From [Flavobacterium] thermophilum (GTDB lineage: Bacteria; Bacillota; Bacilli; Bacillales; Anoxybacillaceae), in NCBI GenBank assembly GCA_900450595.1, contig UGGS01000001.1, positions 2,407,254 to 2,471,253 on the forward strand: 64,000 nucleotides of DNA, written 5' to 3'. Position numbers and translations under genes: made by a program. The notes beneath the pieces are model-generated. The model saw only the letters and a list, made by a program, of their open reading frames with translations. It did no database searches and had not been told where the DNA came from. Positions 16,423 through 39,136 of this stretch are shown in pieces (the first letter of the stretch is position 1; each line of letters begins with the position of its first letter).

Positions 16423-16512
16423 CGTCACCCCTGCCTTTCGTATTTCGAAAATGGGTCAACAATTTCGAAACTGATCAAACGGGAATCCACAGCAGCAAAA
16501 CCAACGCGCTAG

Positions 16513-16537
16513 GGCGGGGCTGGCCTTTTGCCCCGCC
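16513..16537 (-). terminator. GC-rich hairpin after the Rpn-type gene
   Basis: GGCGGGGC-AAAAGGCCA-GCCCCGCC on the minus strand, 15 nt downstream of the Rpn-type stop. The U-tract is poor, so efficiency is uncertain. Confidence 0.5.
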
Positions 16538-16551
16538 TGTTTGATTTCCAT

Positions 16552-17433
16552 TCACTTGAAGCCGCTTTGTTTCATTTCCTCAATCTCCGTCACAGGCAAT
16601 CCGGTCAGTTCGTGAATCGTCTGCGCATCAAACCCTTTCATCAACATCCGTTTCGCAATGTGCCGTTTTTCTTGTTCCGCTCCCTCTTTGCGTCCTTCCT
16701 TTCGGCCTTGAATTTTTCCCTTTTGCTCGTACGAAATGATCAATTCCAGCACGCGTTCTTTTTCTTTCGTCTCCATTTGTTCCACCTCGCTTCGAAGCTG
16801 TTGTTCTTCTTCATCGGACAGCTTCACATACGTTTCAAAAAAGCCCATCAACAAACGCTGTCTTGCCTCGTCTAGCTCAAGACGCACCAACATGCGCAAA
16901 AATTGCTTTTTCAGTTCCACTCGTTCACTTTCAGTATAACCCATTTTGCTAAGCAGCGCAGCCGCCACCGGGTTGTCGGTGCGGATGAATTGGCGCCAGT
17001 TTTGCTTGCGCAACTCCACATGGAAAAAGCGAAAGTCAAGCACATCGCCAAACGGAAAGGAGAGCGTGAACGAAGAGGGTTCATCTCGGATGGCATCATA
17101 GCTGAAGACGGCAATCGGAATGATCGGAGTGCGGTATTTTTCAAACAAGCGGCTGAAGTAAAGAAACATTCTTTCTGGAAATGACGATTGAACGTACGCT
17201 TGGTTTTCTACGTGAACAATGATCAATCCGTCTTTTCCTTTGAACTTCGTCTCGACGAGCAGGTCAACGCGGTACTTCTCCCCAGCCGTTACGTCCGTAA
17301 ACAGCTCTTCGGACAAAAACGACAAATGGTTGAAATCAATATGCTCGTGCATATCCGGAAAGAAGAGAAGCACAAATTCCTCAAAAAACGTCTGCAACAA
17401 CTCCTTGAACAACCGGTCGTGATCGATCGCCAT
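16552..17433 (-). CDS. Rpn-family PD-(D/E)XK nuclease / putative transposase
   Basis: The 293-aa protein matches the Rpn (recombination-promoting nuclease, YhgA-like) family. The core reads 'EKYRVDLLVETKFKG...LIIVHVENQAYVQSSFPERM', a PD-(D/E)XK fold with an E-x-Q variant. A charged C-terminal coil (QGRKEGRKEGAEQEKRH) leads into an HTH-like tail 'MKGFDAQTIHELTGLPVTEIEEMK'. These proteins are metal-dependent DNA endonucleases that can raise recA-independent recombination. A second, diverged family member is at 20476-21414 with a similar tail. Confidence 0.8.
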   Translation of the reverse strand: MAIDHDRLFKELLQTFFEEFVLLFFPDMHEHIDFNHLSFLSEELFTDVTAGEKYRVDLLVETKFKGKDGLIIVHVENQAYVQSSFPERMFLYFSRLFEKYRTPIIPIAVFSYDAIRDEPSSFTLSFPFGDVLDFRFFHVELRKQNWRQFIRTDNPVAAALLSKMGYTESERVELKKQFLRMLVRLELDEARQRLLMGFFETYVKLSDEEEQQLRSEVEQMETKEKERVLELIISYEQKGKIQGRKEGRKEGAEQEKRHIAKRMLMKGFDAQTIHELTGLPVTEIEEMKQSGFK

Positions 17434-17633
17434 ACATTCACCTCACACGAATACGTTTCGTATTCTCTTTTTCGACATCATCAAGCAAAATCCTGCCGAT
17501 GGCACAAAAATGACCGTCCCTTTTCAAGAAGAGACAGCCAAGACGCCAACCGCAATGTGAATCCCTTATTCCTGGAACTATAAATGTTCCGCCACTTGCA
17601 CGCAAGGCCGAAAAGCAGGGGATGCCAAGGCGG

Positions 17634-18566
17634 CTACATCCCCACCTTCCTTCCCCCAGCCGCAACTTTCGCCCGGCGGAAACGGGCGATGACGTCATCC
17701 ATCCCCCCGCTGCCGAACAACACGCCCACGACGATGAAAAGAAAACCAGCCAGCTGCATCCATGAAATCGGCTCACCAAGCAACCAGTGCGCCCCAAGCA
17801 ACGAAAAGAGCGGATTGAGGTTGATGAACACCGCCGACTCAGCGGGCCCGAGGTGCTGCACGGCCTGATTGTAAAACATATGGCCGAGCGCCGTCGCGAC
17901 GACCGCCGAAGCAAGGAAAATCATCCAAAGCGGAAGCGTGCCTTCTTTCAAACTCGATAGGCCGCTCGGCTCGAGCACGAGGCTTAAGACAAACAGCCAA
18001 AGCGACCCGAAGACAAGCATCCACCCTGTCATCACCCGCGCCTCGACCGTCGCCTTTTTGATCATAATGAAGCTGATCCCTTGCGCCAAGACGGCCAAAA
18101 ACACGTATACATCACCGATCGACAAATGGCCGAGGCCGCCGTTGCCGCTCGCCACAACAAACACGATGCCAAAAAACCCAAGCGCGATGCCAAGCAGCCG
18201 AAACAACGTCGGCCGCTGGCCTAAAAACACGATCGCCAACAGCGCCGTCACAAGCGGCACAAGCCCTAGCACAAGACCCGCATTCACCGCTGTCGTCCTC
18301 GCAATTCCCAACGCTAAAAAGAAGTGATGGGCCACGACGCTGAACAAGGCGGCCACGCCAATCTGTTTCGCCTCCTTCCAACTGACTCGTTCCAGCTTGC
18401 CGATCCCCCATAAAAACAAAAGCACGACCAACCCGGCCGTTAGAATGCGCAGCGCTGTCAACGCGACGGGCGAAAAATGCTCCACAAGAATTTTCAACGC
18501 CGTCACGTTCAAGCCCCAAGCAACCATAATGGCGACCAACAGCGCATAAATAAATGATTTCCGCAT
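17634..18566 (-). CDS. EamA/DMT-family transporter
   Basis: A 310-aa protein with about ten transmembrane helices and two EamA repeats, the second starting near 'VFLAVLAQGISFIMIKKATV'. 'PLFSLLGAHWLLGEPISWMQLAGFLFIVVGVLF' is typical of the C-terminal repeat of RhaT/YdcZ-like drug/metabolite exporters. GGAGAGGT precedes the ATG at 18566. Substrate cannot be inferred from sequence or neighbours. Confidence 0.88.
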   Translation of the reverse strand: MRKSFIYALLVAIMVAWGLNVTALKILVEHFSPVALTALRILTAGLVVLLFLWGIGKLERVSWKEAKQIGVAALFSVVAHHFFLALGIARTTAVNAGLVLGLVPLVTALLAIVFLGQRPTLFRLLGIALGFFGIVFVVASGNGGLGHLSIGDVYVFLAVLAQGISFIMIKKATVEARVMTGWMLVFGSLWLFVLSLVLEPSGLSSLKEGTLPLWMIFLASAVVATALGHMFYNQAVQHLGPAESAVFINLNPLFSLLGAHWLLGEPISWMQLAGFLFIVVGVLFGSGGMDDVIARFRRAKVAAGGRKVGM

Positions 18567-18861
18567 CGCTCTCTACCTCTCCTGCATCTCTGTTTTCAGC
18601 GGAACGGCAAAGGAAAAACGGAGCCCTAAACGCTCCGCCTTTTCACCCGCCTCCAAATAGGACAAACCACCGTTTCTCACGCTAGTGCATCATTTCCAAC
18701 AACTTCTGCCATCCATTTTACTACACTCTGATGAATTTTTTGACTAAAAAATGCGGCCGTAATGTCTATCCTGTGACACATGCCACGGCGCTTCCGCCCT
18801 TTCCCTGCCCATATCCGCCGCCCATCGTGCATATGGTATAACAGAGAGGAGAGAAGACCCC

Positions 18862-19332
18862 ATGTTCCCACGCTACCGCCAAAAAACGATCCGAGCCAAG
18901 ACTGGGGTGGCGGTTCTCACCGCCGCCGTGTTGGTGGCGATTTTGACCCTGTTTCTTTCGAACGAACGGAACGAGGCAAAGGAAATCGTTGACACGTTTT
19001 ACCGCTACGAGCAGGCAGGGGATTTTGGCAGCTCTTGGGAGCTGTTTCACCCGCTCATGAAAAAGAAATTCCCAAAAGACGTCTACATCCAGCGCCGTGC
19101 CCACGTCTTTATGCAAGACTTCGGCGTCGAGACGTTTGACTACCGCATCGATGAGGTGGAAAACCTGTCGTCATGGTCGATGTCTGATGAGAACAAACCG
19201 CTTCACGACGTGTATCGCGTCCGCGTCATTCAGACGTTCCATAGCGCTTTTGGCGTGTTCGAAATCCATCAAGACGTCTTCGTCGCCAAAGAAAAAGGGG
19301 AAAAGAACATTTTGTTCCCTTACCGCCCGTAA
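18862..19332 (+). CDS. Membrane-anchored NTF2-like hypothetical protein
   Basis: The 156-aa protein has a basic N-terminus, one transmembrane segment ('VAVLTAAVLVAILTLFL', residues ~16-33) and an extracytoplasmic ~120-residue domain beginning 'EAKEIVDTFYRYEQAGDFGSSWELFHP'. This looks like an NTF2-like or DUF4878-type fold. GGAGAG lies upstream of the ATG and TATAAC at about 18836 may be its -10. Function unknown. Confidence 0.7.
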   Translation: MFPRYRQKTIRAKTGVAVLTAAVLVAILTLFLSNERNEAKEIVDTFYRYEQAGDFGSSWELFHPLMKKKFPKDVYIQRRAHVFMQDFGVETFDYRIDEVENLSSWSMSDENKPLHDVYRVRVIQTFHSAFGVFEIHQDVFVAKEKGEKNILFPYRP

Positions 19333-19374
19333 CCCCAACATCGACGCGGCCCCGATATCGACCGGGCGCCGCTT

Positions 19375-19575
19375 TCACCGCTCCTTCCATTCCTCGATGA
19401 TCTCAAGCGTCCGATTCATGCCGACATTGTATATCAACAGCTTAAGCAAGTTTTCCCGCTCCTCTTTCGTAAAAAAGAGATCGCCGTCCATGATCTCAAG
19501 CGGGACAGGGGAGAGCTCGGCATACAGCTCATCATCAACCTTCTGTCCTTCCGATTTTAGGACAAACGTTCTCAT
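19375..19575 (-). CDS. Small hypothetical protein (66 aa)
   Basis: The ORF encodes an acidic helical protein (MRTFVLKSEGQK... EEWKER). The start at 19575 is chosen because AGGAGG is about 10 nt upstream; the ATG three codons earlier overlaps the RBS itself. It converges on the gene ending at 19332. No family was recognised. Confidence 0.6.
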   Translation of the reverse strand: MRTFVLKSEGQKVDDELYAELSPVPLEIMDGDLFFTKEERENLLKLLIYNVGMNRTLEIIEEWKER

Positions 19576-19806
19576 TCGCGCCATCCTCCTTTTCCCCTAC
19601 ACGTTTTGACAAGAAACACCCGTTAGGCAGCGCTCCCTGTCAAGTATAGACTAACGCACAGCGCGTTCATACGGCATTGGCGGCCGCATGCCATGCGCAT
19701 GAGACTCTCTTCCCATTTGAGCAACCTCATCCGAATCTTCTCATACACTAATGTATCATCAATCGGAGCTATTTTCTCCATCCAGCGAAAAAAGGAGCGA
19801 AATGCC

Positions 19807-20304
19807 ATGTACAAACATATCGTCAAACGCGGGGAAACGATCGCTTCCATCGCCCGCGACTACCGCACATCTGTTGAGGCGCTCCTTCGCGCCAATGGGT
19901 TGACCGCCGCGTCCGTCATCTTCCCTGGCCAGGGGATCGTCATCCCCCACCTTCCGCCGAAAGGATCGATTCCGTACACGATCCACATCTCGATCAGCCG
20001 CCGCCAGCTGACGTTAAAACACCAAGGGCGGACGATCCGCACGTATCCCGTCGGCGTCGGGAAAATGGTCACCGCCACCCCCGTCGGCGATTTTGTCATC
20101 GTCAACCGCCAGCCAAACCCAGGCGGGCCGTTCGGCGCGATGTGGTTAAGCTTATCCAAACTCCATTACGGCATCCACGGCACGAACGACCCGTCCTCGA
20201 TCGGCAAATACGTATCCAAAGGCTGCGTCCGCATGCACAACAAAGACGTGCTCGAACTCGCCTCCATCGTCCCGAACGGAACGGAAGTGTTCATCCGTCC
20301 GTGA
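19807..20304 (+). CDS. ykuD: LysM / L,D-transpeptidase (YkuD family)
   Basis: The 165-aa protein has an N-terminal LysM domain ('[19 protein letters not shown]', then '[18 protein letters not shown]') and a C-terminal YkuD L,D-transpeptidase domain. The catalytic signature is '[20 protein letters not shown]' (His, then S-K-G-C-V-R). Size and architecture equal B. subtilis YkuD, which makes 3-3 peptidoglycan crosslinks and is found in spores. AAGGAG lies 9-10 nt before the ATG at 19807. No signal peptide is seen, as in B. subtilis YkuD. Confidence 0.9.
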
Positions 20305-20417
20305 GGGCAAAACAGCACCATTCATCCATCTGTTCCGGGTCGCAACCTGTTTTCTGTTTCAAGGAGATGCCATGCGCTCCCACCGAACGAACACCGTGTT
20401 TCCGCTCACGATGGCAG

Positions 20418-20446
20418 CTGACAATCGATCGGGCAAGTAGTATAAT
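20418..20446 (+). promoter_or_regulatory. Sigma-A-type promoter of the second Rpn gene
   Basis: CTGACA (20418-20423), a 17-bp spacer, and TATAAT (20441-20446), 30 bp before the start codon. Confidence 0.65.
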
Positions 20447-20475
20447 TTAGGTCAAAAGCGAATGGAGTGAAGACG

Positions 20476-21414
20476 ATGCCAGGCGGGATCTCGCATCACG
20501 CCAAAGACATTTTGTTCAAGTCGCTGAGCGCATTGTACCAAAACCAAGCCCTCGATGTATACGGACTTCACGGACTCCCGCGGATCAAAGCACTGCTTCC
20601 AAACGAATTTCCGTCTGTTCGGGCGGACGAACGGCGCGCCGACACCGTGTTTCTTCTCGAAGACGATTCCATTTTGCTTCTGGAATACGAAAGCAACGAA
20701 CGATTTCTCGACAACCATTTGAAGTATCTTGATTATGCCTGCCGCATCCTTCACACATACTATCAACAGGAAAAACGAATCCGCCCGATTCGCATCGTTG
20801 TGATCTACACAAGCGATGTCACGACCGCCCGCGAACAGCTTGACGCCGGCGATGTGCTTCTTTCATCCAAAGCGGTGCTGCTTGGCGAATTCAACGGCGA
20901 TGCCATTTTCCATGCCATTGAAGAAAAAGTCCACAACGGCGAACCGCTCACTCCGGAAGAAACGATGAAACTCATCCTCGTGCCGCTCATGCACACCCGC
21001 TTCGACCGGCAAACGATGATCGAAAAAACGATCGAGCTGGCGAAAGCGATCGGCGACGAACCGAAACAGCTGCACATCATCGCTGGCGTTCTGACCGCCA
21101 CAGACAAATTCATCGACCGGTCATACGCCGAAAAAGTAAAGGAGTGGATCAAAATGAACAAAGTGTTTCGCCTGTTAGTCGAAGAACTTGAACAAGAAAG
21201 AGAAGAAATGTTGAAGAAAGTGATGCAGGAAAAAGAACAAGCAGTGCAAAGAGTCATGCAAGAAAAGGAGCAGGCGATCAAGCAAACGGAAAAACGGAAG
21301 GCCATCGAAATCGCCAAAAATTTGCTTGATGTTCTTCCCATTCACGAGATCGCCAAACGAACCGGACTGACCGTCGCCGAAGTCGCCGATCTCGCGAAGG
21401 AAATGGACAAATAG
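20476..21414 (+). CDS. Rpn/YhgA-like PD-(D/E)XK family protein
   Basis: The 312-aa protein shows a PD-(D/E)XK-like core ('RRADTVFLLEDDSILLLEYES'), a helical middle, a coiled coil with two nearly identical repeats ('KKVMQEKEQAVQ', 'QRVMQEKEQAIK'), and a C-terminal HTH-like tail 'LLDVLPIHEIAKRTGLTVAEVADLAKEM'. The start at 20476 has GGAGTG 7 nt upstream. It resembles the gene at 16552 in architecture but not closely in sequence. Its terminator is at 21422-21449. Confidence 0.7.
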   Translation: MPGGISHHAKDILFKSLSALYQNQALDVYGLHGLPRIKALLPNEFPSVRADERRADTVFLLEDDSILLLEYESNERFLDNHLKYLDYACRILHTYYQQEKRIRPIRIVVIYTSDVTTAREQLDAGDVLLSSKAVLLGEFNGDAIFHAIEEKVHNGEPLTPEETMKLILVPLMHTRFDRQTMIEKTIELAKAIGDEPKQLHIIAGVLTATDKFIDRSYAEKVKEWIKMNKVFRLLVEELEQEREEMLKKVMQEKEQAVQRVMQEKEQAIKQTEKRKAIEIAKNLLDVLPIHEIAKRTGLTVAEVADLAKEMDK

Positions 21415-21421
21415 GCAGCAC

Positions 21422-21449
21422 AAAAGAGCCGCAACCGTGCGGCTCTTTT
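21422..21449 (+). terminator. Terminator of the Rpn-like gene
   Basis: AAAAGAGCCGC-AACCGT-GCGGCTCTTTT: a perfect 11-bp stem ending in a T-run, just after the stop codon. Confidence 0.85.
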
Positions 21450-21559
21450 CATCCGCTTTTTCCCCACAGGAATCAGTGCTGTTCTTGCGTGTAGAACAAG
21501 CAACAGCCGGACTTTGCCTTTGGTTTTTCGCCGCAAAAGCGGGCACACTTCAAAGCGCG

Positions 21560-21949
21560 TCAAACACTCTTCTCCCCGCTTGCCAGCCGCCAACGTGCCT
21601 CATCCGTTAACAACAAATACGGACGGCGTTTCCCCTCCTCCTGGCGCATCACTTTCTCCGTCCACGGGTGAAGCAAAAACAGCCCTAACTTTAGACGGGA
21701 TTCCGAGTCCACCATTTTTTGCCGCACGCCATCTTCATGGGCGATGAGTTTTTCAATCACGTTGAGCATCGCCTTCTTGCTTAGAAACACTTCCTTTTCC
21801 TTCGAACTCAAGCGCACGGTAATCCCCTCATCGGAAAACAAGACGACGCGAAACGCTTCCTTCCCTTTGAACGTCGATACGATTTTTCCTTCGTACAGTT
21901 CAACCAACAACGATTTCCACATGTTCTCGGCAAACGTTTGTCGATCCAT
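21560..21949 (-). CDS. Hypothetical protein downstream of ARH gene
   Basis: A 129-aa soluble protein (MDRQTFAENMWKSLLVELYE...) with a mixed beta/alpha pattern. The start at 21949 is preceded by GGGGGTG, which overlaps the stop region of the ADP-ribosylglycohydrolase gene 12 nt upstream, so the two are co-transcribed. No family was recognised. Confidence 0.65.
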   Translation of the reverse strand: MDRQTFAENMWKSLLVELYEGKIVSTFKGKEAFRVVLFSDEGITVRLSSKEKEVFLSKKAMLNVIEKLIAHEDGVRQKMVDSESRLKLGLFLLHPWTEKVMRQEEGKRRPYLLLTDEARWRLASGEKSV

Positions 21950-21961
21950 CCGTTTCACCCC

Positions 21962-22882
21962 CTATCCTTCTTTGTCCCTCATTCCATTCGCCCCATCCGC
22001 ACCGCTCGAACTGAACGAACGCCGAACATCCGCCAATTGCAACGCCAGTTTTTCCAATTCATCAGCGCAAACGATCGCTTCCACAAACCGCTTCGGCAGC
22101 TGGCTGTATCCGATTTCCAGCCCTTTCAGTCCTCCCGCAATGGCTGCAATCGTATCGCTGTCTCCACCCATATTCGCCGCCGAAATGACGACATCTTCGA
22201 ACGAGTCACAACGGAGCAGCCAATGCAGCACCCACCCCATCGTATGGACGACATACCCGTCAGGAGGGTAGGCAGGCGTCACCATAAGCAGCGGCTCATA
22301 ACGGGTATGCTCCACTTCTTTCCGAATCGCCTTGGCGAGCGGCTCTCCTTGAAGCACCCGAAAGGCGACGCGGTTGTAAATCAGGCACGCCTCTGTCGCC
22401 CGTTCGTCCGCATGCGTCATGCGGGAATGCAAAGCCGTTATTTCTTCCATCTTCTCTTGGTCCGCATATGCCAGCGCGATCGGCAAACAGCGCATCAGTG
22501 ACCCATTGCCTGCACATCTTCCCCCTAACTCCTCGCAAGCCTGCACCGCGGCCGCAAACCAGTCGCCCTGATACCGCCTCAACACCGTGCGGATGATGAT
22601 GCCGACATCGGGCGGGTCAGTCTCGTACCACCGCCAAAACTCTTCGCCAATGTCATGAATCGGGCATGTCGGATCGCGAATAATCCCCCGCGCCACCGCG
22701 ATCGTCATCGCCGTATCGTCCGTTACTTCCCCGGGCTTCAAGTCAAGGAAACCGCCGCCAATGATGTCCGTCACCTTTCCATACTTACGGCGGACGTCAT
22801 CAGCGCTCATAAACTCCGTCGTCGCCCCAAGCGCATCCCCGATCGCCACCCCAAACAGTCCGCCTTTGATCCGATCCAGCAC
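21962..22882 (-). CDS. ADP-ribosylglycohydrolase family protein
   Basis: This 306-aa protein is a DraG/ARH-family enzyme. The di-metal site residues are in 'GVAIGDALGATTEF', 'GEVTDDTAMTIAVARG' and 'AANMGGDSDTIAAIAGGLKG'. Family members remove ADP-ribose from proteins or nucleic acids (e.g. DraG reactivating nitrogenase reductase); the substrate here is unknown. It is probably co-transcribed with the 129-aa gene that follows. Confidence 0.9.
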   Translation of the reverse strand: MLDRIKGGLFGVAIGDALGATTEFMSADDVRRKYGKVTDIIGGGFLDLKPGEVTDDTAMTIAVARGIIRDPTCPIHDIGEEFWRWYETDPPDVGIIIRTVLRRYQGDWFAAAVQACEELGGRCAGNGSLMRCLPIALAYADQEKMEEITALHSRMTHADERATEACLIYNRVAFRVLQGEPLAKAIRKEVEHTRYEPLLMVTPAYPPDGYVVHTMGWVLHWLLRCDSFEDVVISAANMGGDSDTIAAIAGGLKGLEIGYSQLPKRFVEAIVCADELEKLALQLADVRRSFSSSGADGANGMRDKEG

Positions 22883-22981: not shown

Positions 22982-23677
22982 TCAGGCCGACGTGAAGTTG
23001 TTCTCCGGATTCCCGTCCGGATTCGTCCGCTCATAGCCGCCGCCCTGTTCCTCGGTCAAGTTCACATCAGTATTCCCGTCGCCGTCGCGCCAATATCCTT
23101 CAATCCACTGCCCGTCACGCCAATGTCCTTCCACCCAGTGCGGGCGGACATGATGCGTTCCCGGACTTTCGTCTGACTCGACGGCCGCAGCTGCTTCAAG
23201 GGACGCGGAACTGACCAGCTGACTCTGAACATCTGCACCATGGCTTGCGCGGTTCACATCCCCGCCGCTCTCAACCCCATCACCGTAGTCTGCTCCATCG
23301 ATCATGTCGACAATTCCGACGGCCAACATTCCTATCGCCGCCGTTTTGGCGATGCTGGCCAGCCCGTTTTTCACCTTTTGGACGTCATCATCGCGCATCC
23401 CCTCATACACTTCCTTGCCGCTTTCGTATGTATGTTTAGCGGTCTCATATACGCCTTTTGCCGTGCGTGAAATCGACTGGCCGATGCTCTCGATCTCCCT
23501 CTCAATCTTCGCCTCGTCCTTTTGGATAAGGCCGGAAGCCGTATTCCACACGCCGTCGACTGCCTGGCCGAACGTGTCGCCAGCGAACTCAGACGCCTTT
23601 TTCACCCCGTTTCCGACCTCTTTGAGAAAGCGGCTGTCCGCCAGCTCGCCGACTGCGTTTACCGCCCCTCCAATCAA
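22982..23677 (-). CDS. Hypothetical glycine/alanine-rich protein
   Basis: The 231-aa ORF has an amphipathic repetitive N-terminal part ('GNGVKKASEFAGDTFGQAVDGVWNTASGLIQKD'), a short hydrophobic patch ('KTAAIGMLAVGIVDMI') and a C-terminal tail with the repeat 'HWVEGHWRDGQWIEGYWRDG', seen in some Bacillaceae proteins. The frame stays open upstream to about 23763, so the true start may be earlier. Function unknown. Confidence 0.6.
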   Translation of the reverse strand: MIGGAVNAVGELADSRFLKEVGNGVKKASEFAGDTFGQAVDGVWNTASGLIQKDEAKIEREIESIGQSISRTAKGVYETAKHTYESGKEVYEGMRDDDVQKVKNGLASIAKTAAIGMLAVGIVDMIDGADYGDGVESGGDVNRASHGADVQSQLVSSASLEAAAAVESDESPGTHHVRPHWVEGHWRDGQWIEGYWRDGDGNTDVNLTEEQGGGYERTNPDGNPENNFTSA

Positions 23678-30152: not shown

Positions 30153-31520
30153 CTGTAGATGAGCAAATTCACTTACATAAATTGACAACTAAACAAAAAA
30201 GGAGACATGAACCCGATTCCTTGGTTAGAATAGATGTACCACCAACTATCCACAAGGAGGTTCATGTCTCATGAATAAATTAGCACATCACCAAGGAATC
30301 CACAAGTTTTTCTTCACGCTGGGGTTGACGCTGCAGCTTTCCAAACCGGTCATCAAGCATCTCATTCATATCGTCGATGCCTTGACCACCAAGGGATTCT
30401 CGGGAACATTGACTGATATTCATTACTGGAGCTTTCATCCGAATCATCGAACGACGCTCAGTCACTTTTTCACGAAAAGCCCTTGGAACGAGGAAAGGCT
30501 GCTTGGGAAGCTTCAAGAGTGGATCCTTTCCCAGGTCGAACGACTGGCCAAACGGAAGAATCAACCCCTTTTTGTTTCGATTGATGATACGATTTGCCAA
30601 AAAACGAAGCCTTCGTCACGGGCTGTGCACGCCATTCAAGGGTGCGACTGGCACTACTCGCATAAAGATCATCAATCGGTCTGGGGGCATTCGCTCGTTT
30701 GGCTGATGGTGCACACCTTCACGCAGGCGTTCCCATTTGCGTTCCGCCTGTATGACAAGAAAGCGGGAAAAAGCAAGATCGACCTGGCGATCGAGATGCT
30801 TTCCTCGCTCAAGGTGAAGCGGGCTCAGCCGGTGTATGTGCTCATGGATTCGTGGTATCCGTCCAAAAAGCTCATTGAAGCCTGCTTGAAACAGGGATTC
30901 CATGTCATCGCGATGCTCAAGACGAACCGGATTCTCTACCCGAAAGGCATCGCCATCCAAGCCAAGCAGTTCGCCCGCTATATCGAGTCCAAAGACACCC
31001 GCCTCGTCACGGTGGGGCAGGAGCGTTATCGCGTGTATCGCTATGAGGGGGCCATCCATGGCCTCGATGACGCGGTGGTGCTGCTGGCTTGGAAGGCGGA
31101 TCAGCCGATGGCGCCGGAACATCTTCATTGCATCTTGAGCACCGACCGGGAACTCGGGGACGAAGACATCTTGCGTTACTACGCCCAGCGCTGGACGATC
31201 GAGTGCTTTTTCCGGCAGGCGAAAGATCAACTGAAGCTGGATGGATACCGCGTTCGCCACATTCGGGCGGTGAAACGGTATTGGGCGGTGGTGCTGTTGG
31301 CCTGTGTGTACAGCATCGCCGAATCCCGACAAAACCTCTCCACCGGGCTGGAGCTTCTTCGGTCGCGGAAAGACCACAGCGTCGTCGAGTTCATTTATGA
31401 CGCTGCAAAGCAAGATATTCCCATTGATGTGATCAAAAAACAGCTCCGTATCGCGTAAGGGGTACCCTGTTTGTCTCTCTAACCATGGAAATTATTGTAA
31501 TGAAAAATGCTCATCTACAG
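30153..31520 (+). mobile_element. IS701-like insertion sequence
   Basis: 1368 bp with terminal inverted repeats starting CTGTAGATGAGCA on both sides (left 30153, right end 31520). TATT at 30149-30152 and 31521-31524 fits the 4-bp duplication of this family. The left flank is an MFS gene and the right flank the 3' end of an Hsp70 gene, so either both were already fused or the element mediated a deletion. Confidence 0.88.
30271..31458 (+). CDS. IS701-like DDE transposase
   Basis: The 395-aa protein is intact. DDE residues are placed in 'FVSIDDTICQKTK', 'YVLMDSWYPSKK' and 'RYYAQRWTIECFFRQAKDQL' (Y-x2-R-x3-E signature). CAAGGAGG precedes the ATG. Nothing suggests inactivation. Confidence 0.9.
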   Translation: MNKLAHHQGIHKFFFTLGLTLQLSKPVIKHLIHIVDALTTKGFSGTLTDIHYWSFHPNHRTTLSHFFTKSPWNEERLLGKLQEWILSQVERLAKRKNQPLFVSIDDTICQKTKPSSRAVHAIQGCDWHYSHKDHQSVWGHSLVWLMVHTFTQAFPFAFRLYDKKAGKSKIDLAIEMLSSLKVKRAQPVYVLMDSWYPSKKLIEACLKQGFHVIAMLKTNRILYPKGIAIQAKQFARYIESKDTRLVTVGQERYRVYRYEGAIHGLDDAVVLLAWKADQPMAPEHLHCILSTDRELGDEDILRYYAQRWTIECFFRQAKDQLKLDGYRVRHIRAVKRYWAVVLLACVYSIAESRQNLSTGLELLRSRKDHSVVEFIYDAAKQDIPIDVIKKQLRIA

Positions 31521-32372
31521 TATTAACGTAACCGGCTCCCCTTCAACGACGTCAATATAGATGTTTTGCGGCATTGTTCTTTCTGATTTGCCTATTTCAT
31601 CGACATGGGCAAGGCGAATATTGCTGCGATTGTAATGGTAAATCGCTGCCCCTCTCGATACGGCATACATCGAGTTGACTGGCATTAACGGAACGATACG
31701 GCGTCCAAATAATTGATAAATGCGCTCTTGCACTGTCGGATAGTACGTCATTCCTCCTACTAAAAACACATAGTCTATGTCAGAAAGTGTTAACGGAACA
31801 CGTGCATCCTTAATCGCATTACGAATCGGATATTCAATGCATTTCTTTTCCTCGCGTGCATATTGAGCGTCCAACAAAGGACGAATGGCCTCATCGATTT
31901 CCGCTTTGGTAATGTGCAAACTAACTCGAAGTTCTTCAGGAACATTGGCCATCAGTTGCGTAAAATGATAAGAATCTAGCTCTCTTTTCTGCTCGTCAGA
32001 AAGCTCCACATAACTTTTTCCGTTCATATTCATTTGCAGCGTCATATTAATTTTGTTCGCAATTTGAACTTTTGCTTCTTCTGCCATGGCAAGCAGCGAC
32101 TCTCTAATTTGCAAGCGCACGTGCTGCGGCAATGCTTGAAACTGCTGTTTTGTAAGATGTTTTTCCCCCATCACCTTATGTAACCACTTATCCATCAGCT
32201 TTTTCATAATTAGTTCATCAAAATCCGCCCCGCCAAGCTCGGTATATTGGGAGATAGAAAGCTCGGTAATGTCAAAGCCGCCATTTTCGTTACGGCTCAC
32301 CCGATGAATCGTGACGTCACATGTTCCGCCCCCAAGGTCGAACACTAAAATATTTTTCGGGCCGCTATTTAA
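31515..32372 (-). pseudogene. Hsp70-family protein, C-terminal part (IS-split)
   Basis: This is the second half of the Hsp70 gene that begins at 34841. It opens 'NSGPKNILVFDLGGGTCDVT' (phosphate-2 loop), continues 'GGADFDELIMKKLMDKWLHK' and 'DIDYVFLVGGMTYYPTVQERI', and ends the ATPase domain at 'VSRGAAIYHYN'. Only ~20 residues of a substrate-binding domain remain ('MPQNIYIDVVEGEPVTLI') before the IS701 end supplies a stop. With the first half and the IS1634 removed, exactly 476 codons are in frame up to the IS701 duplication. The 3' end was lost. Confidence 0.9.
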
Positions 32373-34259
32373 CTCACATTTCGCACCCTAACAAGGTCAA
32401 AACAAAGGATTTTTTATTTAGTTTTTCAGAATAACTTTTTGACCAACACGACGAGCGATGGCTATCCTTTTTTTACCATCGCTGGTCGTTCCGTATGACG
32501 TTACACGTAAATGCTCTCATCCATGCCCAATCCCTGCAGAATCCTTCGCTGATCAGGGGTAAGGGAGCGATCCAGTGAGCGTTGGATGCGCCCATCCGGC
32601 AGCTTGAACAGGACGACGTTCACATATTGAAACAGCTGGAAAATCGCCTGTCCCGTCGGCCGGGTCAGCTTGCGGCCTCCAGGACCCTTCAACGGGTGTT
32701 CTGGAGTAATAAACTGACGCACTCGGCGCTGAAAAACGCGGTAAATCGCCAAGGCCAAGAGAAACAAATAGCCCAATACCGCAACTCGTTCTGGCTTTTT
32801 GACATAGATCTCATCCGTGAAAAAAGGGTCTTTCAAAAAAGCGAAGTTCATTTCCACCGAGATCTGCCCTTTATACAGCTTCAAGATCTCTTGGGCATCC
32901 ATTTGTTGGCCCTTCCATTCCTCCGGAACGGTCGTGACGAGGACAAACCGGGACGCTTTCCGTCTTGCCTGTTCCCACGCGTTTTGGTCGAATTCGACGT
33001 CAAGGTGCAAGAAATACAGCGTCTCCACCTCGGGTTCCGCCCCTTTTTTCGGCCGTCCGCGCCGTTTTTTCGGGCGTACGATCTCTTCGACCGCGGCCTC
33101 AACCCGATGAAACCGGGGGCGAAGGGACGCCTTGAGGGACGCCAAGGCTTGTTCAGCGTCTTCCCGGCACGAGAAAGGGTGGCGCTCCCAATGGGCTTGT
33201 TCCTCGCGAAGAAGCTCCGCTTCTTTGGTTCGTTCTTTTTCGAGCGTCTTTCCTTTTCGCTGATCGAGCGCACTCGATTCGACGACGATCAGCCGAACGG
33301 GGTGGCCTTCATAGGTGGAGGATGTTTCCCATACCCGATACGTGGCGCCGTTTCTCTCCGCCAGCGTAAAGGGTTCGCTCCACGGGATGTGAGGCGAATC
33401 GGCCTCCGCTAATGCCCGTTTCACGATCCGAAGCGACGAAGGGCCTCGGGTGATCAAAAAGGCGTTGGCCGCTTTGGTTTGCGCCAGAGTGTCTTTTGTC
33501 ATCGCGGCGGAATCGGCCACGTAAATCCATTCGTCTTCCATCTTCGCTTGTTTGAGCTGTTCGTGGACACGGGACAGCACCTCCGGATTCCACGTTTTGT
33601 CAGGCAGGTTGCCGTCGTGCACATCGCCGTAAAACGGGATGCCGTCCTCGTTGCCGACCAGTCCGAAACCGATCTGTTTTTGCCAACGATGATGGCGGTT
33701 ATAGCCATGTGTGATTTGTAAGGCCTCTAACGAGGCCGATTCATACGCGCCGTAAACCGTCTTGTCCGTCGTATCGGCGTGGAAGGCTCGGAGGGAAAGG
33801 CCTTCTTTGCGATAAATATGAATCAAGCAAGTGCTGATGACGTTGTGAATGCCAGCCTCATACAGGCGATCGAGATGACGAGCCAAGGCATCGTCGTTCA
33901 ACCAGGAAGGATGGAGACCGGGACGGATGAGTTTCTCTAGATCGACCTCCTGAGCCCAATGTTCCAAGTGAACAAGGGCTTGCCGGCCGTCAAACATATT
34001 GTAGATGATGGCCTGAACGGCATCGCTGACTCGCGTTTGGCACTGCGGATCGACGGGCACGAGATGGTCAATCAATTGAGGCAGACCCAGTTTCTTGAAT
34101 AGGGCACTTATTATATTCAAATAATCATTACGATAGACCTTTTTGACTTGAACGTTCATAAGAGAAAAACTCCTTTACGTTCCTTGTGTGTCAAGGATTC
34201 ATTCGACATCGGAACGAAAAAATCCTCCCGATTTTCGTCGAGAGGGTGCGAAATGTGAG
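32373..34259 (-). mobile_element. IS1634-family insertion sequence in the Hsp70 gene
   Basis: 1887 bp. Terminal repeats CTCACATTTCGCACCCT start at 32373 and (inverted) end at 34259. The 6-bp duplication ATTTAA is at 32367-32372 and 34260-34265. Removing the element plus one ATTTAA joins 'KYSAFDLN' to 'SGPKNILVFDLGGG' in frame. Confidence 0.95.
32501..34159 (-). CDS. IS1634 family transposase
   Basis: The 552-aa protein has the DUF4277 N-terminal domain ('YLNIISALFKKLGLPQLIDH') and a DDE core with 'AFHADTTDKTVYGAY', 'WIYVADSAAMTKDT' and 'LYKGQISVEMNFAFLKDPFF'. AAAGGAG precedes the ATG. It is full length and apparently functional. A 23-bp relic of an end of the same IS lies at 57360-57382. Confidence 0.92.
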   Translation of the reverse strand: MNVQVKKVYRNDYLNIISALFKKLGLPQLIDHLVPVDPQCQTRVSDAVQAIIYNMFDGRQALVHLEHWAQEVDLEKLIRPGLHPSWLNDDALARHLDRLYEAGIHNVISTCLIHIYRKEGLSLRAFHADTTDKTVYGAYESASLEALQITHGYNRHHRWQKQIGFGLVGNEDGIPFYGDVHDGNLPDKTWNPEVLSRVHEQLKQAKMEDEWIYVADSAAMTKDTLAQTKAANAFLITRGPSSLRIVKRALAEADSPHIPWSEPFTLAERNGATYRVWETSSTYEGHPVRLIVVESSALDQRKGKTLEKERTKEAELLREEQAHWERHPFSCREDAEQALASLKASLRPRFHRVEAAVEEIVRPKKRRGRPKKGAEPEVETLYFLHLDVEFDQNAWEQARRKASRFVLVTTVPEEWKGQQMDAQEILKLYKGQISVEMNFAFLKDPFFTDEIYVKKPERVAVLGYLFLLALAIYRVFQRRVRQFITPEHPLKGPGGRKLTRPTGQAIFQLFQYVNVVLFKLPDGRIQRSLDRSLTPDQRRILQGLGMDESIYV

Positions 34260-34841
34260 ATTTAAATCAAACGCACTATATTTGTCAGACGCTTCCCTCT
34301 CCTGGTTGAGAAAATCAATTAATGCAGCTGTCGGCTCGGGAATCATAATGATTTTATCCCGGTCAAATCCTGCTAATACCGCTGCCTCCCTTGTCGCCCC
34401 CTGTTGCTGGAAGTTAAAGTTAGCCGGAATGGTGATGACAGCCCCATCAATTTTCTGATTTAAAAACCGCTTTTCCACCGCATTTTTGGCCGCTTTTAAG
34501 TAAAATGATGATACCTCTGACGGAGTGAAATACTGCCCATTTTCCATCTTCCAACGATATTTTTTATCTTCTCCGATGTAACGTTTTGCCTTGCTTGCGG
34601 TAAATTGCGGCTCCATCCACGCCATTTTTTTCGCATAGCGGCCTACATAAGGAACGGAATTTTCATCGATGTAAAGCACACTTGGAAGCAGTTTTTCTTC
34701 AACAAAATTCCCATACTCATCCACTTGGCCGATGTCCAATGTTTCCGCGTGCAGTTTGCCAGTTGGGCTCAAGTAAGCAATCGATACCGTTGTATTCGTC
34801 GTTCCTAGGTCAATGCCGACATAATATTCTAGCTTTCTCAT
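34260..34841 (-). pseudogene. Hsp70-family protein, N-terminal part (IS-split)
   Basis: The ATG at 34841 follows GGGGAGAGAG. The protein begins 'RKLEYYVGIDLGTTNTTVSI' (phosphate-1 loop) and continues through 'GAVITIPANFNFQQQGATREAAVLAGFD' to 'IPEPTAALIDFLNQ', all typical of a DnaK-type actin-like ATPase. The insert region differs from housekeeping DnaK, so it is a specialised Hsp70. The IS1634 at 32373-34259 interrupts it at about residue 194. It lies 20 nt downstream of the coiled-coil gene, as the last gene of the three-gene operon. Confidence 0.92.
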
Positions 34842-34861
34842 GATTACTCTCTCCCCTATTT

Positions 34862-36307
34862 TTATTCCGTGACCTCTTCTACCAATGGCTGAACAATGAC
34901 TTGGCCATAAATCATCCAACCATAGCGTGTAATTTTTACACGCACTTCATTTGTCGAACTAGCGATTGGATGAAGCATCATAAACCGCTCCCGTAATTCT
35001 TGCCTTGTGAGCGTCAATTCCTGCCCAATTTCATATCCGTAAGCGGTCGGTTCTAAGCCAAACAGGCTGAACGCATTAAACAAATTCACCAACCGTCCTC
35101 GTGTAATCTCAGAATCTACTACGGTCGCCCCTTGACTTTCCTCATATAATTCGGAAAGCAAATAATGATGCTGATTCCCACCAACAGCCTGTATAAATTG
35201 TTTGAATCGCTTCCATTCGATCTCTGCTTGCTGTTGTTTGAGCTGCTCGATTTCCATATAAAGACGTTCATTTTCTTCTCTTAGCTGTGCAATCACCTCC
35301 TCATTGTCCGCGCCTGACGCATTGGCTAGTCCACCTGCAAGCCGCTGTTCTAATGCACGCAAACTTTCTTTGATCCGCGCGGAAAACTCGTCCACTTCCT
35401 TGGTTAGCTGCTGTATCGTTTCCTGATCAGTCAATGAGGAGGAAACAGCTACTTCCGTTTCACTCGCTATCTTCTCCTCTATCTCTTCTGCCTCCGCTGG
35501 TTGTAATTCTTCCTGTGTTCCTGCTTCTGTCGCTTCGAGTCGCTCAACCTCCACCAAAGAAGCTTCTTCTGCAAGCAGATGTTTCGCTTTCTCACTTACG
35601 TTGCGGAGGAAATTCGCAATAACCTCCTTATCCTCTTTTTCTTTTAAAATTGGAATGATAATGCTGAGCATCCCATTATGGAAAACTAGTTCATCCGGTG
35701 AAAAAGCTTGGCCATACTGATGCATCATTTTGTAATCTGCGGAATCATCCTTTCTCGTCATCAATAAAGACCGCAGTACCCTCATCACTTCTTTTCTGGC
35801 ATGAACCCCTTTGAACAGCGAAGGGAGAACCGCTTCTGCCAACGAAAACACATCCCCCGGCCGATCGACAAATTGCACCACCGTGCGGACAAACAATTGC
35901 ACAAATAACTGTGGATTCCCTTGCGTATACAGCTCATAAGAAGGAAAATTGCCGCTGCACAACGCATGAAACGCCCTTCTCATCATGTCATGGCGAATTG
36001 GCAGATGGTCCAGCATTGCCCGAACGACAAACTTGTCTATAGTTGGCTGAAACTGCCCATTCCACTCTTTCACCACTAGATCAGCCACATCGCTGTTTTG
36101 CTCGTTCGGATGCTCAAAAATAACCTTTTCAACAACCGCTTGCAATTTCCATAAAAATCGGCTTCGCTTTGCGAACGTATTCAGTTCATATTGTTGTAGC
36201 TGTCGCTCAAGCTCCTCCCGATTAATCCCTTCTTTGTCAACAAACGACCAAAAATCTCCAGAAAGCCCTTGATACTTCACAAATTGTTCTAACCATTGTG
36301 TCGACAT
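34862..36307 (-). CDS. Coiled-coil protein between beta-CASP nuclease and Hsp70
   Basis: This 481-aa protein has a helical N-terminal half with several W/F-rich helices, an acidic linker (EATEAGTQEELQPAEAEEIEEK), a coiled coil at about residues 295-365 ('ARIKESLRALEQRL', 'LREENERLYMEIEQLKQQQ'), and a C-terminal 'VRVKITRYGWMIYGQVIVQP' strand segment. Its start overlaps the beta-CASP gene by 19 nt and its stop is 20 nt from the Hsp70 start. The coiled coil beside an Hsp70 suggests a GrpE-like or adaptor role, but no GrpE homology is evident. I recognise no family. Confidence 0.75.
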   Translation of the reverse strand: MSTQWLEQFVKYQGLSGDFWSFVDKEGINREELERQLQQYELNTFAKRSRFLWKLQAVVEKVIFEHPNEQNSDVADLVVKEWNGQFQPTIDKFVVRAMLDHLPIRHDMMRRAFHALCSGNFPSYELYTQGNPQLFVQLFVRTVVQFVDRPGDVFSLAEAVLPSLFKGVHARKEVMRVLRSLLMTRKDDSADYKMMHQYGQAFSPDELVFHNGMLSIIIPILKEKEDKEVIANFLRNVSEKAKHLLAEEASLVEVERLEATEAGTQEELQPAEAEEIEEKIASETEVAVSSSLTDQETIQQLTKEVDEFSARIKESLRALEQRLAGGLANASGADNEEVIAQLREENERLYMEIEQLKQQQAEIEWKRFKQFIQAVGGNQHHYLLSELYEESQGATVVDSEITRGRLVNLFNAFSLFGLEPTAYGYEIGQELTLTRQELRERFMMLHPIASSTNEVRVKITRYGWMIYGQVIVQPLVEEVTE

Positions 36308-38709
36308 TCCACTACTTCCCCTTTCGAAAATGTATAAATAGTACCATTTTTCGCGGCTACCACTGGGACAGCCAAATTGTTTTTCAATAAAGAAAAAACA
36401 GTTGGGTATACAACGCCGTTCGAACGGGGGACCCTATATTGTTGCTCATGCTCCCCGTGAACTAAAAAAATAGCACTTGGATTTAAAGAAATCGCTGTTT
36501 TGATAATTTCCTCCCGGCTAGCATGGGCGCTTAACCGAATGGAACAAATCTCCGCCTTTACAGGATAAAGGCGTTCGTTCAGTCTCACCGTATCCATTTG
36601 GCCGTGCAACAAAGAATGTCCTGGACTCTCTTCATCTAAGTATCCAGAAAAAGCAATCGCATTTTTCGCATCCGCCACGATCTTTTCGGCATAACGGGAA
36701 GAAGCACTCCCATCTTTTAACATTCCCGAGCTAGCTATGATGCAATTTTTTCCTTGATTTAACATTCGTTGTGCAAACTCATCAAACTTACCGTTTCGAT
36801 AAAAACTCCTTGCCTCTCGAATCCCTTTATCAAATAGAGAAGAATAACCGCTATGATGAGACAAATAGAAGTCATACACTTGAGAAACTTCAGCTACTAA
36901 ACCGTCCACATAAACAAAAAACGGCAAAAAGCGATGATGGCGAAAATATTCATGTAAAATCAGCATAATTTCTTGAGCGCGCCCAAGCGCAAAGGCAGGA
37001 ATGAGTATATTCCCACCACGCTCCATTACTTTCTCTATCTGCTTCACCAACAGCTTTTCTTGCTCTTTCCTGCTCATACAGGCGTTCGTTGGCAGGGAGC
37101 CATATGTATTTTCCGTAATTAAAATATCTACATGCAAATCAGGAGGCAGGACCATCCCTTTTACCGTTTTTTGATCCGTAATAGAAAAATCACCTGTATA
37201 AAAAATAGAAACGCCTTTTATTTCCAAACATACCGCAACAGCCCCTAAAATATGGCCTGCACGATAAAAAGTTACTTTCCATTCGTCATCTTTAGAAGGA
37301 ATCGTAAACGTATGGCAGGCACATTCCATATGTTCCAATGCCGCCTGTAAATCCGCTTCGGAAAATCCAATCTCTTCCTTGCTATGCTGCTTTAGCAAAT
37401 CCGCCAACATGACACCCATTAACCGTTTCGTTTCTTCCGTAGCGTAAATAGGAATATTCGGACATTTTCGGTACAAATATGGAACTGCCGCACTATGATC
37501 CATATGGGCGTGGGTAATGATCAGCGCGTCAATATCTTCCCATTTTACATTTAATCGATCTAGGGGGGTATAGTCAGGAAGGACATTCCCTTCACCTAAA
37601 TGAAACCCGGCGTCTAACAAAATATGATGATCTTCCACCGACACAAGTATAGATGAACCCCCGATCTTCTCTCCCCCACCCAGCACAGTCACCCTCACCT
37701 GATCCAGTAACGGCTTTCTCCTAACCGCCCTTGCCTTCTCTAATCGATGAAAAATACGGACAGCTTCCTCCAAATCGGCATAGTGAGTAAAATGATGGTG
37801 CAATAAATCGTAACTGTCGAGCCCGTTCATCATCACAGCCAGTTTCATCGCGAGCCAATGGCCACGGAATTGCTTCACCTTCTCGGCTTCTTGAAGGGAA
37901 ATCGCTTCACCGACGATGAGCTTGCCATAAATGATATAAAGAAACTGCTTCTCTGCTAAAAATGGATGAACAAAGGTTTGCTGGCAAAACTGCCGCAACT
38001 CCTCTTTGGTAATCTTCCGCTGATACATTTTTTGCACGGTCAAAAAAAAGCTCCAATTTTCTTCGCAAAGACATAAGGCCAAATTCCGCAAGGCCTCATT
38101 CTCCCACCACTCTTCCAACAAATCCAACTTTACGGAACAGACAAACAATTCATTCGCCTTTTCTGACACATCAAGCTGCAAGAACAACAGCTTGCGCAAA
38201 TGAAAACGGGCCTGCGGAAAATTTCCCGCCTCCATCTCCAAAACAACAAGGAACAGAACGACATCCATATAGATATCTTGGTATTCCACGCTTTCGGCAA
38301 AAAGCTGTTCTGTTACTTCATAAAGCTGCGTTGCTTCCAAATAAACATGTTCGCCCTGTTTCCATAAATGTTGCAGTATAGGCAAACAAATTCTTGGCTG
38401 CCTGCGAACCCCAAACTGATCGTATATATGCCAAAGTTCTTCCGTCTTCCCATCTACTTGTTCCCATGCTTCAATGAACGGTGGGACAAACTTTTCCAAC
38501 TCTCCTCCTTTTTCTAATGCTTCTTTTGCCACCTGCAATACCTTTTGGAAATTCCCTATTCTATGAAAATATTGCATTAAAGCATATAGCATATCTAACG
38601 TGATATGTTCCTCTTTTGCCAGTTCTTCGTAATAAAAAGCCGCCTCCGCAAACCGATGGCGATTCTCCAAAAAAACCGCCTTGTGAAAAAGCTCCTCGCT
38701 TCTACTCAT
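36289..38709 (-). CDS. TPR + metallo-beta-lactamase/beta-CASP nuclease
   Basis: The 806-aa protein starts at 38709 (AGGTGA 9 nt upstream). Residues ~1-345 are TPR-like helices ('LFHKAVFLENRHRFAEAAFYYEELAK'). From ~350 comes an MBL domain with 'ILLDAGFHLGEG', the metal motif 'ITHAHMDHSAAVPYLY', 'FYRAGHILGAV' and 'FYTGDFSI'. The beta-CASP insert and final motifs follow: 'ITENTYGS', 'LIPAFALGRAQEIMLIL', 'SGMLKDGSASSRYAE', 'SAHASREEI' and 'IFLVHGEHEQQYRV'. This is the arrangement of CPSF73/RNase J-like nucleases. RNA is the likely substrate. A TPR-fused beta-CASP enzyme in an operon with Hsp70 is unusual. Confidence 0.88.
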   Translation of the reverse strand: MSRSEELFHKAVFLENRHRFAEAAFYYEELAKEEHITLDMLYALMQYFHRIGNFQKVLQVAKEALEKGGELEKFVPPFIEAWEQVDGKTEELWHIYDQFGVRRQPRICLPILQHLWKQGEHVYLEATQLYEVTEQLFAESVEYQDIYMDVVLFLVVLEMEAGNFPQARFHLRKLLFLQLDVSEKANELFVCSVKLDLLEEWWENEALRNLALCLCEENWSFFLTVQKMYQRKITKEELRQFCQQTFVHPFLAEKQFLYIIYGKLIVGEAISLQEAEKVKQFRGHWLAMKLAVMMNGLDSYDLLHHHFTHYADLEEAVRIFHRLEKARAVRRKPLLDQVRVTVLGGGEKIGGSSILVSVEDHHILLDAGFHLGEGNVLPDYTPLDRLNVKWEDIDALIITHAHMDHSAAVPYLYRKCPNIPIYATEETKRLMGVMLADLLKQHSKEEIGFSEADLQAALEHMECACHTFTIPSKDDEWKVTFYRAGHILGAVAVCLEIKGVSIFYTGDFSITDQKTVKGMVLPPDLHVDILITENTYGSLPTNACMSRKEQEKLLVKQIEKVMERGGNILIPAFALGRAQEIMLILHEYFRHHRFLPFFVYVDGLVAEVSQVYDFYLSHHSGYSSLFDKGIREARSFYRNGKFDEFAQRMLNQGKNCIIASSGMLKDGSASSRYAEKIVADAKNAIAFSGYLDEESPGHSLLHGQMDTVRLNERLYPVKAEICSIRLSAHASREEIIKTAISLNPSAIFLVHGEHEQQYRVPRSNGVVYPTVFSLLKNNLAVPVVAAKNGTIYTFSKGEVVECRHNG

Positions 38710-38878
38710 ACTTTTGTCACCTAATTTTCTATTTTTTTTATCTTGATAAGTATATTTTAACCAATACAACCTAGGAATTTTGTCGAAATTGGTCGTATTA
38801 GCGGAATTTTTGGTATACATTTTTTATTTAAACAGCCTATATAGAGTGAACATCAACCGAAAAAATCGATCCACTAAA

Positions 38879-38911
38879 AAAGCTTCTCACTGTTGCGCGG
38901 TGAGAAGCTTT
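38879..38911. terminator. Bidirectional hairpin upstream of the beta-CASP operon
   Basis: AAAGCTTCTCAC-TGTTGCGCG-GTGAGAAGCTTT, with A/T-runs on both sides. It separates the MFS gene (stop at 39137) from the beta-CASP operon. Confidence 0.75.
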
Positions 38912-39136
38912 CCTAACCCAATCATTATTCAATCCGCTTTTTCATTTCACCTGGCACTGGCAACGCAACTGACATGAACAACGCACTCGCCCACCATGGA
39001 TGATTCTAAACGGCCACCACTCAACGAGCTATGTGCCCTTTCACCCGATTACCTCATCAAACGGGGAAAAAGCAAAAATGCGGGTAATCCGGTCATACAT
39101 ACTTGTGCGGAACCGAAGATAAATTCTTCTCTCCCG

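Follow-up and report, generated by a model that had tools for sequence, protein, structure and literature searches.

A group of coupled genes on the minus strand of [Flavobacterium] thermophilum (GCA_900450595.1, contig UGGS01000001.1, positions 2,407,254 to 2,471,253) encodes a nuclease of the metallo-beta-lactamase (MBL)/beta-CASP type together with a coiled-coil protein and an Hsp70, which raises the question of what a chaperone is doing beside such an enzyme. We analyzed the 64,000-nucleotide stretch carrying these genes (the window, numbered from its first letter) together with relatives of the operon in other genomes. What remains in the window is a broken copy of an operon of Bacilli that has moved horizontally and has five genes when intact. 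On balance, and with modest confidence, we favor an explanation in which this Hsp70-linked nuclease operon encodes its own putative exchange factor and a probable RNase and would serve defense through the chaperone cycle.

A five-gene operon, broken in the window

Intact copies of the unit are about 9 kb long and encode on one strand, in this order, the beta-CASP nuclease, CC1 (a GrpE-like coiled-coil protein), a lidless Hsp70, a HEAT-repeat protein and CC2 (coiled-coil protein 2), where a preliminary description made from the window alone had seen an operon of three genes. All five genes occur in identical order on a single strand at 13 of 14 other loci (the profiles having been built from the first loci), the 14 comprising ten from a CC1 search with one genome per species, two plasmid records and genomes G197 and G236. 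Genomes G026, G009, G158 and G342 are the same as loci L012, L013, L020 and L017 and are counted once, and loci L016 and L018 are near-identical and thus not independent. The ten loci of the species search come from organisms that we take to be Bacilli throughout. On plasmid pNY3A, Hsp70 and CC2 are each divided into two open reading frames (ORFs), and a Priestia plasmid has separate ORFs for the beginning of the beta-CASP gene and the final part of CC2. Genome G236 shows matches to four of the genes, with a short CC1, and a 528-aa ORF after its HEAT gene has no match to the CC2 profile. Gaps within the unit range from -67 to +137 bp (12 loci measured, first possible start codons).

The unit is rare, with the HEAT profile matching four of 398 Bacilli genomes (G158, G197, G236 and G342) and CC1 found in five, namely those four (short in G236) and the present genome; three more genomes with weak coiled-coil CC1 matches were left out of this count. 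CC1 is also found in 3 of 61 genomes of relatives, this genome included, and a phylum sample gave a real match in 1 of 398, again this genome, with one further weak coiled-coil match left out. No relative was found in phage and viral sequence collections. A neighborhood conserved in other genomes was one of two checks that the preliminary description had set for itself, and the order kept at 13 loci, together with the co-occurrence of HEAT and CC1, bears it out and rules out a simple chance neighborhood. Spread to Proteobacteria via pNY3A (CP079755.1, labeled Klebsiella grimontii; loci L002 and L065) was dropped as a candidate because the plasmid carries a Spo0E-family gene; the label is probably wrong and the plasmid one of Bacillaceae, a Bacillus-type operon being aboard as well.

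In the window, the nuclease gene (36289..38709, minus strand) starts at the later ATG used by relatives, the ORF itself extending to 38820. It overlaps the CC1 gene (34862..36307, minus strand) by 19 nucleotides, and a gap of 20 nucleotides separates CC1 from the Hsp70 start at 34841, exactly the coupling described before; the starts used for these measurements were set from alignments of homologues. The call of the third gene as Hsp70 also holds, with PF00012 matched in two separate ORFs (the intact relative scores 167.1 bits), but the gene is not intact. Its N-terminal piece (34260..34841, minus strand) ends at an IS1634-family element (32373..34259, minus strand; transposase at 32501-34159, NF033559, 319.6 bits), which has inverted ends that agree at 20 of 25 bases and shows a 6-bp target repeat, ATTTAA. 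The second piece (31521..32372, minus strand) carries the remaining nucleotide-binding domain (NBD) and ends at the start of the substrate-binding domain (SBD), cut by a second insertion sequence (30153..31520, plus strand; transposase-like ORF 30271-31458) with TATT on both sides and inverted ends likewise alike at 20 of 25 bases. The DNA match to an intact relative starts at 34260 on the nuclease-side piece, and 31521-32376 matches at 95.7% identity. The HEAT gene had no match anywhere in this genome in two profile searches, one of which found HEAT in four other genomes. Because the Hsp70 is interrupted and truncated and the HEAT gene was not found, the window copy is a remnant that could not work as a whole. 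Measured against the Anoxybacillus vitaminiphilus copy, the ratio of nonsynonymous to synonymous substitution rates (dN/dS) is 0.155 for the nuclease and 0.159 for CC1, low values that indicate real, intact genes under purifying selection; the Hsp70 pieces give 0.21 (N-terminal) and 0.04 (second).

The operon DNA of the window is 93.6 to 95.7% identical to that of A. vitaminiphilus, a member of another genus, while the window flank at 16466-21934 shares 90 to 95% identity with the DNA 3' of a diverged operon copy in Geobacillus proteiniphilus. The operon has thus moved horizontally, and the window and G. proteiniphilus hold different operon alleles at the same site. Between this flank and the remnant now lie about 9.6 kb containing insertion sequences and broken genes. 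Upstream of the nuclease, the 93.6% match to A. vitaminiphilus continues to 39076, and this conserved intergenic stretch (38710..39076, minus strand) may carry the promoter.

Two loci are plasmid-borne (pNY3A and the Priestia plasmid), and the nuclease gene comes first in a tightly coupled operon, features that would suit an addiction or toxin-antitoxin-like module in which the Hsp70 partners hold the nuclease inactive and loss of the operon or plasmid frees it. We consider such a module very improbable, since about 9 kb and five conserved genes would make it large and the window nuclease and CC1 genes are intact despite the broken Hsp70, so that a nuclease without its Hsp70 is apparently tolerated.

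The nuclease, the Hsp70 and a putative exchange factor

The nuclease belongs to the CPSF73-INTS11-aCPSF1 class by Pfam, NCBIfam and PDB matches. Lactamase_B (1.1e-14), Beta-Casp (1.4e-14) and RMMBL (2.2e-9) are found in it, in agreement with the MBL/beta-CASP enzyme first described, while the TPR N-terminus claimed for it gives a TPR_14 match below cut-off only. Its best PDB sequence matches are INTS11 and CPSF73 (E from 7e-66), with archaeal aCPSF1/FttA also close and then Cas14 of type VII CRISPR; the scores remain below the equivalog cut-offs of both aCPSF1 (TIGR03675, 263.7 bits versus 580.2) and Cas14 (NF045584, 206.5 bits versus 800). Residues H437, H439, D441, H442, H523, D544, E570, H766 and H788 are invariant in 12 of 12 aligned nucleases, and they include what we take to be the MBL motifs and beta-CASP motifs A to C, by which we recognize a beta-CASP RNase. 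The MBL/beta-CASP/RMMBL architecture and the catalytic residues are common to this protein and to aCPSF1/FttA, CPSF73, INTS11 and Cas14, but its N-terminus is TPR-like where aCPSF1 presumably has KH domains, and it is encoded in an Hsp70 operon, not in a Cas context as Cas14 is. The conserved residues suggest that it is an active CPSF73-class RNA endonuclease, a claim that we place second among our functional claims in falling order of confidence.

The Hsp70 has an ATPase NBD in which the positions we take to be catalytic are invariant in 11 of 11 aligned rows, together with the beta part of the SBD (SBD-beta), the two marks by which we recognize an Hsp70. The alignment to DnaK runs through SBD-beta and stops at DnaK residue 491, and the protein is therefore lidless, given where we assume the DnaK lid to lie. 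The HEAT protein contains HEAT_2 repeats. CC2 shows a coiled coil and a conserved tail and could not be placed, its profile matching generic coiled coils only when compared with the PDB. A look by eye for the HPD string in the core-protein alignments, with no profile run, gave nothing resembling a J-domain.

The preliminary description could not place the coiled-coil protein, and the window CC1 indeed matches nothing in Pfam, NCBIfam or PADLOC at E 0.01. It comprises a helical N-terminal domain, a variable coiled coil and a C-terminal domain (about residues 325-481), the last of which resembles GrpE in AlphaFold 2 (AF2) models, in structure comparison and in a weak profile alignment. For the AF2 model of the C-terminal domain, GrpE accounts for seven of the best eight structure matches, with 121 to 132 residues aligned and the whole domain covered; for the full-length model, those among the matches listed that span the C-terminal domain are five GrpE chains. 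A single structure aligner was used for these models, and the structures concerned (1dkg, 4ani, 8gb3, 9bls and 3a6m) show 7 to 14% identity to CC1 in the structure alignments. The profile alignment with GrpE (20 ORFs from 25 GrpE loci, 21 having been picked and one wrong ORF dropped) is in register, though weak. The GrpE profile PF01025 matched neither the window CC1, at E up to 0.01, nor the L006 CC1, at E up to 0.1, and the CC1 profile compared with PDB sequences returned two chance coiled coils and no GrpE.

In the models, CC1 seems to share with GrpE a passage from a helix through short helices to a beta domain over the whole of its C-terminal 157 residues, and its gene adjoins that of an Hsp70; it differs in carrying a large additional N-terminal helical domain and in having no Pfam GrpE match. 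A reading of CC1 as a mere coiled coil was ruled out, as the short CC1 of G236 has no coiled-coil stretch yet keeps the C-terminal domain. CC1 did not turn out to belong to a known unrelated family, the second of the two checks set beforehand. In Hsp70 cycles generally, hydrolysis is triggered by J-proteins and the release of ADP is driven by GrpE-type factors. The models suggest CC1 as the putative nucleotide-exchange factor of this Hsp70 in particular, which is the functional claim we make with most confidence; the host genome retains its own GrpE. For a dedicated Hsp70 machine, a GrpE-type partner is a better fit than the vague adaptor suggested before.

Neighboring genes and a possible role in defense

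We observe a nuclease-type gene 3' of the core at 10 of the 14 loci (a raw count), with five kinds plus McrBC represented. Three loci have an RNase III-like gene with double-stranded-RNA-binding motifs; two have an HNH gene, one of these genes lying behind two small ORFs, scoring below cut-off and being 70% identical to the other; two near-identical loci have a colicin-DNase/WHH gene; and Mrr, NERD-UvrD and McrBC occur at one locus each. G. proteiniphilus has a further McrBC 5' of the core. At the other loci, the 3' side holds a HAD-like gene, ORFs of no known kind, or nothing on that strand. The kind of partner does not track the core tree: pNY3A, which carries HNH, groups with two RNase III carriers (joint-tree support 1.0 for the three, whose internal order, at 0.62 to 0.91, is not resolved), while the remaining carriers of the two kinds, Neobacillus for HNH and Sutcliffiella for RNase III, fall outside this group. 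The RNase III-like proteins (L014:16865-18877, L019:16463-18478 and L021:16503-18515) form a family of about 670 aa that combines double-stranded-RNA-binding motifs with the RNase III-like domain, and PADLOC gave no match for the L014 member, the one tested.

Flank proteins were also compared with PADLOC, where 8 of 10 matched at E 1e-5 (ten proteins from five loci, picked by eye and so biased), the models including type I restriction, OLD/GajA-like, DUF262-type (named by eye), LeoA and others. The core proteins gave weak, partial PADLOC matches only (best 2e-5) and do not correspond to a listed system.

A stress-response module for RNA decay, playing no part in defense, in which the Hsp70/GrpE-like pair adjusts the nuclease on sensing heat or aggregation, would accord with the established place of Hsp70 and GrpE in proteostasis and with G197, where no nuclease gene lies 3' of the core and a neighbor resembles a WYL regulator (named by eye). 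We nevertheless judge it unlikely, as a housekeeping module should be more evenly distributed than one found in five Bacilli genomes and on two plasmids, and as restriction- or defense-type genes lie nearby at several loci and the nuclease partners change. The same context (a rare, horizontally moved operon, partly on plasmids, with restriction-type neighbors and a changing nuclease partner) supports a role of the operon in defense against phages or other mobile DNA, a claim that ranks third in our order of confidence.

A further explanation makes the five genes an offshoot or satellite of the CoCoNuT/McrBC type IV restriction systems, serving as the RNA-cutting arm of a GTPase-driven restriction complex. 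As described in the main text of PMC11090510, CoCoNuTs combine McrC and HEPN RNases with an NxD McrB-like GTPase to which a coiled coil is fused; CnuD of type III CoCoNuTs joins an Hsp70-like NBD/SBD to HEAT-like helices. Two of our loci (L006:5851-7833 and L013:2766-4808) have an McrB-like GTPase with a shortened NxD motif (GTMNMD) adjoining the core, on different sides of it, and accompanied by an McrC-like protein in which a PD-(D/E)xK-type motif is retained; the McrB-like neighbor in L006 matches PDC-M26A (E 1.2e-60), and in L020 a distantly McrC-like protein (E 1e-9) is encoded on the opposite strand. The McrB match is absent from the other 12 loci and from the ORFs of the window in the fetched DNA, and no HEPN or CnuH-type helicase gene was noticed among the scanned flank proteins, by eye and with no profile run for either. 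Moreover, the NBD motifs are invariant here, whereas the CoCoNuT Hsp70 units are reported to have degenerate Walker A-like motifs (PMC11090510), and we find this explanation less likely still than the stress module.

Having weighed these alternatives, we return to a dedicated defense operon and propose, in line with the preliminary description, chaperone-gated, phage-triggered RNA cleavage as its possible mechanism, whose steps carry the lowest confidence of our four claims. The Hsp70 would cycle on and off a client, aided by the GrpE-like factor and a host J-protein, with HEAT and CC2 as scaffolds of the assembly. Candidates for this client are the nuclease complex itself and a phage protein made in excess. 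Infection would then occupy the Hsp70, the nuclease would be released or assembled, and the freed enzyme would cleave RNA and stop the infected cell, while the companion nuclease might add a second cut, on DNA or double-stranded RNA. In its most specific form, this would be an undescribed defense system in which a chaperone engine (lidless Hsp70, GrpE-like factor, HEAT and coiled-coil scaffolds) reads the production or aggregation of phage proteins and activates a CPSF73-class RNase, with exchangeable second nucleases, a proposal that we put forward tentatively. If it holds, a private Hsp70-GrpE cycle would be the bacterial control unit for the RNase class that cuts eukaryotic pre-mRNA, protein-folding load would be a testable example of an infection signal, and a likely function would be given to a coiled-coil family unmatched in Pfam and NCBIfam. 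The five-gene unit is in any case defined and can serve as a target in genome scans.

Related systems and other genes of the window

We found no account of the five-gene combination in the literature that our search reached, most subscription papers lying beyond it. One close likeness is to type III CoCoNuTs, which share Hsp70-like, HEAT-like and coiled-coil parts and a predicted RNase in defense-type operons (PMC11090510). The core nuclease is, however, beta-CASP here and HEPN there, Hsp70 and HEAT are separate genes here with a GrpE-like partner, and NxD McrB and McrC adjoin the core at 2 of 14 loci only. In the main text of PMC11090510, metallo-beta-lactamase has a single mention, as an ancillary gene in a figure legend. 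A dedicated HSP70 with GrpE within a predicted conflict operon is likewise reported for variants of the GAP1-N2 GTPase systems (PMC7159879), in the main text of which the terms metallo-beta-lactamase and MBL do not occur; at our loci, no GAP1-N2 GTPase was noticed, with no profile run. The chaperone cycle as a sensor of infection, proposed here, has a parallel in bNACHT25, whose phage sensing and activation depend on DnaJ/DnaK according to PMC12169576, although the chaperones there are the host's own and here the chaperone is encoded with the nuclease.

Three further genes of the window show likeness to genes near other copies of the operon. A gene of about 130 aa with no Pfam match (21560-21958) is found again next to the operon in L012 and L013, on opposite sides, and an ADP-ribosylglycohydrolase (21962-22882, PF03747) has a relative near the A. 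vitaminiphilus operon (L012:1808-2675). The protein encoded at 22982-23677 has no Pfam match of its own and shares a stretch of 142 aa (32 to 33% identity) with the WHH/colicin-DNase proteins encoded after the core in L016 and L018.

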